From contig CACAYQ010000010.1 in NCBI GenBank assembly GCA_902536695.1, forward strand, positions 1 to 33,601: a stretch of DNA of 33,601 nt, given 5' to 3'. The stretch comes from an uncultured Bacteroidota bacterium. Its GTDB lineage: Bacteria; Bacteroidota; Bacteroidia; Flavobacteriales_D; Parvicellaceae. How positions within the stretch are numbered: position 1 is the first letter of the stretch; each line of letters opens with the position of its first letter. Under the pieces are notes generated by a model. That model saw only the letters and a list, made by a program, of their open reading frames with translations, was not told the origin of the DNA and searched no databases. This document shows positions 24,368 to 27,338 of this stretch, in pieces. Both the position numbers and the translations under genes were made by a program.

Positions 24368-25486
24368 TTAAGCATCTTTGTAAACCGTTCTACTCACATT
24401 AATGATAATGCCTAAGGCAACACAACTAAAAATAATGGAAGTACCTCCCATGCTTATGAGAGGAAGTGGCTGCCCTGTAACTGGGAATAAATTAACCCCA
24501 ACACCCATGTTGATTAAAGATTGAAAAACCAATAAAAAACTCAATCCAAATACGACATAAGCTCCAAATAAACTTTCAGTTTTATTCATTATTCGAATGG
24601 ATCTAAAAAATAGAATCGTGTACATTATGACTAAACCTAAACCACCAAAAATAGATCCAAACTCTTCGATTGAGGATGCATATATGAAATCAGATTGTGC
24701 AGAATACAAGTCGTTTTTTACATGACCTTTACCTGGTCCCTTTCCAAATAAAAAACCATTAGCCACAGCTCTTTTAGCCATTTCAGCTTGGTAATTTTCT
24801 TTTTGACTTCCACTTTCAAAACTGGTAATTCTTTTTTGCCATGTATCTACTCTAGGCAATAAGCCTGGAAAAGCTAAATTTAACAAAATCAATATGGCAA
24901 AACCGGCAATTGAAACTCCAATCATTGCAGATAAATGTTTTAACTTTGCACCTCCAACAAACAGCATAATAAAACAAACAATAAACAACATAGCTGCCGT
25001 TGAAAAATCAGCTGGTAGAATTAATCCGCAAATAATAACTATAGGCCATAAAATAGGAGCTATGCCTAATTTAAAATCTTTGATAACTTCCTTTTTGTGC
25101 ACCAACATTCTAGCCACATATATTACGAGAATCAACTTAGCTAAATCGGAAGGCTGAAACCCCATAATCCACCTAGAGGCATTTCCTTTATTTACACCAA
25201 ATAATAAGGTAACAAAAAGCAATACAATTGAAATAAAAATACCTATTTGTGAAAGCCTTGAAAAATACTTAAAATTGAAAAACTGTAGATAGATGATGAT
25301 TACAATCCCGATCATCAATATTAACAAATGCTTAATTAAAAAAGGGACCACATTCCCACCTGCTAATCTAAAAGCTAAATTAGAACTGGAACTGTAAGCC
25401 ATTACAAGTGAATAAAGAGACAATACAACGATAATAGTCCATATGACTTTATCCCCTTTTATATATTTTTCAATAAACTTTTGCAC
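24368..25486 (-). CDS. ftsW: SEDS peptidoglycan glycosyltransferase FtsW
   Basis: FtsW is the SEDS-family polymerase that builds septal glycan strands from lipid II with its partner FtsI. The 372-residue protein has about ten membrane segments. Family marks include WIMGFQPSDLAKLILVIYVA, ILPADFSTAAMLF, the periplasmic YQAEMAKRAVANGFLFGKGP loop with its conserved GxGPG-like end, DFIYASSIEEFGSIFGGLGL and the C-terminal GQPLPLISMGGTSI. The start is GTG at 25486, 3 bases after the stop of the mini-MurD gene; no nearby ATG would fit. It could in principle be RodA, but its place in the dcw cluster favours FtsW. Confidence 0.94.
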   Translation of the reverse strand: MQKFIEKYIKGDKVIWTIIVVLSLYSLVMAYSSSSNLAFRLAGGNVVPFLIKHLLILMIGIVIIIYLQFFNFKYFSRLSQIGIFISIVLLFVTLLFGVNKGNASRWIMGFQPSDLAKLILVIYVARMLVHKKEVIKDFKLGIAPILWPIVIICGLILPADFSTAAMLFIVCFIMLFVGGAKLKHLSAMIGVSIAGFAILILLNLAFPGLLPRVDTWQKRITSFESGSQKENYQAEMAKRAVANGFLFGKGPGKGHVKNDLYSAQSDFIYASSIEEFGSIFGGLGLVIMYTILFFRSIRIMNKTESLFGAYVVFGLSFLLVFQSLINMGVGVNLFPVTGQPLPLISMGGTSIIFSCVALGIIINVSRTVYKDA

Positions 25487-25489
25487 GTT

Positions 25490-25981
25490 TTATAATTGAG
25501 CAACAAGGGTTTTAAAATGATAACCTCTTTCTCTAAAATTTTTATAGTTAAGGAAACTAGTACAAGCAGGCGAAAAAAGCACGATTTGACCTGGTATTGC
25601 ATTGGAATGAGCTAGTTGGATAGCCTCGTTCAATTCTTTTTTATAAGCATATTTTATTTTGGATGCAAAATGGTATTTAATTTCCGTTTCAAAATGGCCA
25701 TAACATATAATTTGATCTACTTTATCAATAGCTACATCCGTTACAATATCTAAGTTTCTTTTATTTTCATCGTATCCTACAATCCAGATGATATTTTCAT
25801 GTAAATTTTCTAATGAAAAACAAGATGCTCCCATATCAGTAGACTTTGAATCATTAATCCATAGGACATCATTCTTTTCACGAATTACTTCTAATCGGTG
25901 TTCAATAGAAGAAAAGGAAGCTAAAGATTGTAGTCTATTTTGTACTAATAAGCTGGTTGTTTTTTCTTTAATTTTGTTCAT
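25490..25981 (-). CDS. Stand-alone MurD C-terminal domain (mini-MurD), function unknown
   Basis: A 163-residue protein encoded directly downstream of murD. It aligns along nearly its whole length with residues 300-448 of the neighbouring MurD, at about 30 percent identity by eye. Shared landmarks are EHRLE (27-31), INDSKST (42-48), IIWIVG (64-69), IICYG, SPACTSF (137-143) and KNFRERGYHFK (147-157). It has no UDP-binding Rossmann domain and no GSNGKTT ATP loop, so it cannot be a ligase alone. Positions equal to E. coli MurD Thr321, Ser415, Asn421 and Phe422, in its substrate-binding domain, are kept; Asp417 is Leu. I start it at ATG 25981, 10 bases after the murD stop; the frame is open to 26089 but that part overlaps murD. 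It sits 3 bases before ftsW. Most likely a diverged partial duplication kept under selection. Confidence 0.85.
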   Translation of the reverse strand: MNKIKEKTTSLLVQNRLQSLASFSSIEHRLEVIREKNDVLWINDSKSTDMGASCFSLENLHENIIWIVGYDENKRNLDIVTDVAIDKVDQIICYGHFETEIKYHFASKIKYAYKKELNEAIQLAHSNAIPGQIVLFSPACTSFLNYKNFRERGYHFKTLVAQL

Positions 25982-25991
25982 ATCATTGGAT

Positions 25992-27338
25992 TTAAAGTGA
26001 TCTGACTGCTTTTTTAAATTGATGACCTCTGTCTTCATAATTCTTAAATAGATCAAAACTTGCGCATGCAGGCGACAGTAAAACGGCATAGCCCTTTTTG
26101 GCTATTCTGTAACTAATTTGAACGGCTTGTGACGCAGACTGAGCTTCATAAATTGGAGATACAATTTCTCCAAACTCCTCCTGAATTTTATTATTCTCTT
26201 TGCCTAAGCAAATGATTCCTAACACCTTTTGTTTTACTAAACCTTTAAGGGATGAATAATCATTTCCTTTATCCACACCTCCAACTATCCAAATGGTAGG
26301 CTTTTGCATACTCTCTAATGCATACCATGTTGCATTTACATTGGTAGCCTTTGAGTCATTAATAAAATCTATACCATGAATTTTTGCTACTTTTTCTAAG
26401 CGATGCTCTACATTCTGAAAATCGCTTAAACTATCGCGAATAATCTCTTTTCTTATATCCAACACCTTAGCCGCGATTCCCGCTGCCATGGAATTGAATA
26501 CATTGTGCTTACCCTGCTGGGCCAGTTGATGTATTGACATAATTGTTTGTTTTTGGTTGTTTATTTTTATTATTATGGATTCCTTTTCAAGCCAAGAATC
26601 CACACCATCTTTTTGAAATATGGATACTGGGTGAGTTTGACATTCTAAATTTCTTTTTGCTAATGCTTCTTTGATAACAGGGTCATCATAATTGTAAATG
26701 AAATGATCATTTACAGTCATATTTTGAGTTATTCTAAACTTACTGTTGACATACAGATCAAATGAATTTTCATATCTGTCTAAATGGTCAGGAGTAATAT
26801 TTAGCAGCAAGGCAATATCTGCCTTAAAAGAGAACATAAAATCTAACTGAAAACTGCTTAATTCAATCACCTGGTAATCTGGAGGATCAATAGCAACGGA
26901 CATGGCATAACTCTCGCCTACGTTTCCTACTGCCTTTGCACTCAAACCAGCATTATTTAATAAATGAGTAATTAATAAAGTGGTGGTGGTTTTACCGTTG
27001 CTTCCAGTTACACATATCTTTTTAGAATTGCAGTAATGATATGCAAACTCAATTTCTGAAATTATGGGAATTCCTAAAGAAGATATCTTTTGAACGAATG
27101 GGGATGAAGGTGGAATCCCAGGACTTATTATTACACTTTCAGCTTTGTCTAGTATATAATCACTGTGACCATTTTCTTCCCACTTAATATCATAGTTATT
27201 GAGTATTGATTTATATTCTAATGTGATAGAGGAAGCATCCGAAACAAATACATTTTTTCCTTTTTTTTGTGCTAAAACAGCCGCACCAACACCACTTTTA
27301 CCTGCACCCAAAACAACGATATTTTCAGCACTAAACAT
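25992..27338 (-). CDS. murD: UDP-N-acetylmuramoyl-L-alanine--D-glutamate ligase MurD
   Basis: MurD adds D-glutamate to UDP-MurNAc-L-alanine with ATP. The 448-residue enzyme looks complete: N-terminal VVLGAGKSGVGAAVLAQKKG, ATP loop GSNGKTT at 112-118, ELSSFQLDFM, LNITPDHLDRYE, and the likely carbamylated lysine at Lys200 in NSKFRI. Domain 3 has EHRLE (311-315), NDSKAT (327-332), GGVDKGND and SPACASFD (422-429). The start abuts the mraY stop. Because the full enzyme is intact, the adjacent mini-MurD is not needed to restore a broken gene. Confidence 0.97.
   Translation of the reverse strand: MFSAENIVVLGAGKSGVGAAVLAQKKGKNVFVSDASSITLEYKSILNNYDIKWEENGHSDYILDKAESVIISPGIPPSSPFVQKISSLGIPIISEIEFAYHYCNSKKICVTGSNGKTTTTLLITHLLNNAGLSAKAVGNVGESYAMSVAIDPPDYQVIELSSFQLDFMFSFKADIALLLNITPDHLDRYENSFDLYVNSKFRITQNMTVNDHFIYNYDDPVIKEALAKRNLECQTHPVSIFQKDGVDSWLEKESIIIKINNQKQTIMSIHQLAQQGKHNVFNSMAAGIAAKVLDIRKEIIRDSLSDFQNVEHRLEKVAKIHGIDFINDSKATNVNATWYALESMQKPTIWIVGGVDKGNDYSSLKGLVKQKVLGIICLGKENNKIQEEFGEIVSPIYEAQSASQAVQISYRIAKKGYAVLLSPACASFDLFKNYEDRGHQFKKAVRSL

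Follow-up and report, generated by a model that had tools for sequence, protein, structure and literature searches.

Our results leave little doubt that the 163-residue protein encoded between murD and ftsW in the window (i.e., the whole stretch of 33,601 nucleotides that was analysed) represents a gene family which originated from a duplicated C-terminal domain of MurD, is old in one class of bacteria, and has been kept between these two genes. To our knowledge, this family, hereafter referred to as mini, had until now gone unrecognized as a conserved free-standing gene of the dcw cluster, although the domain itself was already known; as in the initial annotation, which knew of no such protein, no description of a lone MurD domain 3 was found in the literature searched (open-licence PMC). 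On its minus strand, the window carries a division and cell wall cluster of standard content (ftsI, murE, mraY, murD, ftsW, murG, murC, ftsQ, ftsA and ftsZ), in which the mini start lies 10 bp after the murD stop and the mini stop 3 bp before ftsW, all on that same strand. The lone domain 3 had been annotated between murD and ftsW with the correct coordinates, strand, length (163 aa) and 10-base gap, and the genes concerned are the following:

25490..25981 (stop codon 25490-25492), minus strand: mini gene, a free-standing MurD domain-3 paralogue of 163 aa plus stop, based on the ORF, homology, same-slot homologues and a structural model
25992..27338, minus strand: murD, intact and full-length (448 aa) with all MurD domains (Pfam), neighbour and paralogue of mini
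24368..25486, minus strand: ftsW, 3 bp downstream of mini, the neighbour with which mini stays upon cluster breakage

A longer mini frame of 199 aa (window positions 25490-26089) opens at an ATG inside the 3' end of murD and may be chosen by gene callers; the 163-aa start is preferred because it is supported by the relatives. A scan for promoters and terminators returned signals at chance level. An assembly artefact or a frameshifted second murD, raised in the initial annotation as a sequencing error joining a second full murD, was ruled out, since three further genomes of the genus display the same arrangement.

Within its own genome, mini matched the C-terminal third of MurD only (mini residues 18-161, 35% identity to the adjacent MurD, E=4.6e-25). 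It passed the gathering cutoff of Pfam Mur_ligase_C (PF02875; 36.6 bits against 28.4), a domain that was found by profile search in 16/17 diverse minis at E<=0.01, and it aligned to positions 292-440 of the 441 positions of the murD equivalog TIGR01087 with 126.9 bits, below the cutoff of 211.95; hence mini has neither the above-cutoff score nor the three domains that together define a MurD. The UDP- and ATP-binding domains of MurD are absent, and with the lack of domain 2 the D182 contact and the ATP site of MurD are missing (Pfam, TIGR01087). An AlphaFold2 model built on an alignment of 17 minis displayed a confident MurD domain-3 fold (pLDDT 89.2, pTM 0.82), and its best 33 PDB fold matches by Foldseek were all MurD (TMq 0.69-0.81), followed by MurE, pseudomurein ligases and, weakly, the MurE-like subunit of plastid RNA polymerase. 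The isolated domain 3 of E. coli MurD (301-437) gives uniform NMR spectra (PMC4652230), and therefore mini can be expected to fold on its own. The elements located by alignment, and for the first of them also in the model, are these:

25910..25978, minus strand: mini residues 2-24, N-terminal helix modelled with less certainty (block pLDDT 52-71), a lineage-specific extension
25838..25855, minus strand: residues 43-48, NDSKST loop equivalent to E. coli MurD N316-T321 and better conserved than any other loop of the family
25763..25777, minus strand: GYDEN, residues 69-73, replacing MurD GGxxK, with Asn73 at the Lys348 position
25523..25573, minus strand: SPACTSFLNYKNFRERG, residues 137-153 (E. 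coli S410-G426), with the S415 and F422 equivalents retained

D-Glu binding by MurD needs T321, K348, S415 and F422 of domain 3 plus D182 of domain 2 (PMC4652230). With the E. coli numbering checked against 1e0d, the alignment bore out the annotated retention of T321, S415 and F422 equivalents in the window mini, in which K348 is replaced by Asn73. This lysine is kept in 72/73 MurDs versus 4/73 minis (0/20 in the window's family, one being undetermined, 0/21 in the rest of the order, and 4/32 in the rest of the class). Three of the four minis bearing it belong to family f24, whose members retain all four D-Glu contact positions. Residues R302, K319, T321 and S415 are kept near-always in the window's family and lost in several other lineages, N316/D317/S318, S410-P411 and R425-G426 persist in nearly all minis, and the active-site face is largely gone in f3 copy 1, f4 and f8, yet the gene is retained there. 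Judging from these sequences, mini cannot act as a ligase, since it has no domains for UDP and ATP and the D-Glu lysine is almost always absent.

As for its distribution, mini was identified in 33/37 genomes of the window's family, and thus the absence from close relatives that the initial annotation had set as a check was not observed. Three of the four genomes without it also lack any MurD match, and the fourth has MurD alone in a 720-contig assembly; every family genome with an intact locus carries mini in its slot, and the order murE-mraY-murD-mini-ftsW-murG-murC was found in 20/20 loci examined, murD and mini being parted by additional genes in genus g9. The gene is likewise carried by six other families of the order, either as two tandem copies (f2, f3 and f7), as one (f10 and f11), or as one plus a strongly diverged second (f4), and a class-level sample added 17 further families with mini in the same synteny, for a total of 24 sampled families of the class, plus a 25th (f8) with a barely recognisable form. 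The second tandem copies L032-L038 have in common an N-terminal FTIHKxKKSQ-like motif, absent from the first copies, which is a possible docking peptide. The slot is empty in families f6, f9 and f13 and in the examined named loci of Bacteroidales, Flavobacteriaceae, Weeksellaceae, Hymenobacteraceae, Sphingobacteriaceae and Chitinophagaceae, and outside the class mini was found in 0/68 genomes of the phylum (18 families). Since many relatives lack mini, it is not universally required. Based on the one named carrier, L072 (JAQWRG010000077.1), a 'Flavobacteriales bacterium' MAG, the carrier class would be Bacteroidia.

Second, unlinked mini-type genes were observed in f16, f56 and f52 (L193 4783-5322, L195 4617-5156, L199 4602-5144, L191 4695-5333 and L198 4871-5488); those of f16 and f56 adjoin an aldehyde dehydrogenase gene, and in f16 photolyase, MerR-type regulator and ECF sigma genes are also nearby. 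As to whether homologues always lie between murD and ftsW, a check proposed in the initial annotation, they did so at nearly all loci, the departures being these few extra copies and the broken clusters described below.

An extremely diverged branch was recognized from one f8 genome with a 157-aa ORF in the slot, at first seemingly unrelated to minis. Counting this ORF itself, the form was found in 9/16 f8 genomes, in each case immediately upstream of ftsW. The f8 form has no Mur family match in Pfam, but a profile-profile comparison by HHalign matched it to the minis with 96.9% probability (E=1.8e-10, 146 columns); the family therefore exceeds the reach of annotation pipelines, and absences in other lineages may be under-called.

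Regarding selection, dN/dS was estimated by the Nei-Gojobori method with a custom script, leaving out pairs with saturated dS. The three pairs with usable dS in the window's family gave 0.040, 0.115 and 0.179, other families gave 0.026 to 0.232, and for the pairs of the window's family domain 3 of MurD itself gave 0.015-0.023. Mini evolves faster than MurD domain 3, yet it is plainly constrained. These values, together with same-slot retention across the class, uphold the earlier suggestion of an old duplication under selection as opposed to debris; mini combines the loss of the catalytic apparatus with purifying selection, as a pseudoenzyme does.

The neighbour to which mini is bound was best seen where the cluster is broken. 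In G212 (L196/L197), the sole available genome of its family and order, the cluster is split, with murD on one contig and mini 6 bp before ftsW on another; in genus g28 (L242, L244) the f8 form is still beside ftsW, with murD ~6 kb off in G115 and on a separate contig in G059; and in genus g9 murD is separated by one or two inserted lipoprotein-like genes from mini, which still adjoins ftsW. Upon breakage, linkage to ftsW was thus maintained in these three cases, with a partial exception in f24, where a small single-TM ORF, diverged and present in all three loci (L200, L202 and L203), lies between mini and ftsW. Other than this inserted ORF, no reverse case (i.e., mini kept with murD and parted from ftsW) was seen; in the order of G182, murD and mini are side by side in 6/6 genomes. 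The inserted g9 genes (L065, L066, L067 and L068) have a common VVHxGxxQKRKYxKG motif. Across 59 loci, the mini-ftsW spacing had a median of 3 bp, with 20/59 overlapping or touching, versus a median of 15 bp and no overlapping or touching for murD-mini; spacing is weak alone, because the loci are non-independent and ftsW is often near whatever precedes it, and where murD directly precedes ftsW without mini the two are closely spaced as well, so a short gap before ftsW is not specific to mini. The rearrangements hence weigh more than the spacing. A column-by-column search of six neighbouring proteins for residues co-varying with mini presence returned no FtsW-specific signal, a result that speaks neither for nor against the link to FtsW. 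On the whole, the link to ftsW, one of several options in the initial annotation, is the one favoured by synteny.

With the integration of these findings, we tentatively propose, at somewhat less than an even chance, that mini, a non-catalytic paralogue of MurD domain 3, has taken on the role of a cytoplasmic adaptor or regulator on the axis of FtsW and precursor supply. Mini would be a soluble cytoplasmic pseudo-domain produced together with FtsW, which would bind either FtsW itself or the precursor machinery associated with it (MurG/MraY); once docked, it would display a MurD-domain-3-like surface, and this mimicry may tether or tune the Mur-ligase supply where septal peptidoglycan is made. 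The proposal is favoured by the retention of the gene in lineages that have each lost different ligand residues, by a gene that follows ftsW and not murD, by the conserved slot, by the domain-3 fold, by the likelihood of a single mini clade and by selection; it is opposed by the f24 ORF between mini and ftsW, the D-Glu positions kept in f24, the unspecific short gap before ftsW, the lack of mini in many relatives and the extra unlinked copies. A broader reading, possible although rather doubtful, is that mini would be a class-wide division component, namely a cytoplasmic subunit, derived from MurD, by which the FtsW complex would couple precursor synthesis with septal wall synthesis, present in about 25 sampled families and beyond annotation pipelines in at least one.

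The main rival to the adaptor proposal is a regulator of MurD acting in trans, for which mini would dock on MurD domain 2, replace the enzyme's own domain 3, and inhibit or gate the ligase. MurD is controlled by the opening and closing of domain 3 (PMC4652230), mini derives from MurD and adjoins murD in nearly all genomes, and its most conserved loops (NDS, SP and RG) belong to the active-site face of domain 3. However, three separate rearrangements have parted mini from murD but not from ftsW, and f3 copy 1, f4 and f8 have lost most of that face despite retention of the gene. The MurD columns that best distinguish carriers from non-carriers do cluster at the domain 2/3 hinge (residues 305, 306, 323 and 325 of the window MurD), but these differences are probably phylogeny, as non-carrier relatives in the order share the hinge columns. 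On balance, regulation in trans, offered in the initial annotation as a swap with or control of MurD, may apply but is rather unlikely.

It is less probable still that a hot spot of tandem partial murD duplication has produced separate copies in each lineage, in place of one old family. In a tree of the order members, all 40 MurD domain-3 sequences formed one clade (support 99), separate from every mini; with the class added, a free tree placed the f24 minis, with their D-Glu contact positions kept, among the MurDs, and the copy number varies from one to two, as recurrent duplication would have it. Against it, a constrained search with all minis as one clade reached a better likelihood (p-AU 0.894), and thus a single old origin is not rejected; the f24 minis may nevertheless have had a separate origin, the deep branching being unrooted, with long branches. 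Furthermore, purifying selection was found in every pair with usable counts, and the slot and the pattern of loss are common to the minis.

A D-Glu or ATP sensor is very improbable. The equivalents of R302, D317, K319, T321 and S415 are kept in most window-family members, which favours a sensor; nevertheless, K348 is rare among minis and the other contacts are lost lineage by lineage, and therefore neither ligase activity nor D-Glu sensing is a shared role. In addition, apo MurD does not bind D-Glu by NMR and ITC, domain 2 being needed (D182, ADP, Mg and UMA are required; PMC4652230). D-Glu sensing or binding, which the initial annotation had offered as a role, is consequently unlikely to be common to the minis. 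Finally, decaying duplication debris, to which fast evolution and the extreme divergence in f4 and f8 could point, has a negligible probability given dN/dS well below 1, open frames and retention across about 25 families, and at the window locus it is refuted by family conservation together with dN/dS of 0.026-0.232.

Several known systems resemble mini in part. Mini shares with MurD domain 3 the fold, 35% identity to the adjacent MurD and most loop motifs, but it lacks domains 1 and 2 as well as Lys348, and is a separate gene beside an intact murD. Mur ligases including MurD bind MurG and MreB (PMC4929429, PMC6420597); in the MurG scaffold such ligases are held near the membrane by protein contacts (PMC6420597, PMC4929429). 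Unlike mini, MurG is an enzyme with a general role, and a lone domain is not described there. PAP11, the MurE-like protein of the plastid-encoded RNA polymerase, is likewise a Mur-ligase relative serving as subunit of another machine (PMC9456514), but it is a full-length MurE relative from plants, presumably non-enzymatic there, in an unrelated complex. The trypanosome prozyme, a dead paralogue regulating its enzyme, follows a similar logic, as an inactive duplicate that selection has retained (PMC5201418). In contrast to the prozyme, mini keeps one domain only and its linkage is to ftsW.

Few bacterial gene clusters have been studied as much as dcw, and yet an additional gene, conserved there over a large part of one class, has seemingly been overlooked. 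Short 'MurD' matches in carrier genomes are not misannotations. The family portrays an enzyme domain turned into a non-catalytic part, with surviving stages that range from an almost intact form (f24) to one that is hard to recognise (f8). With a natural mimic of a single MurD domain encoded next to ftsW, the recruitment of Mur ligases to the membrane machinery becomes directly testable.
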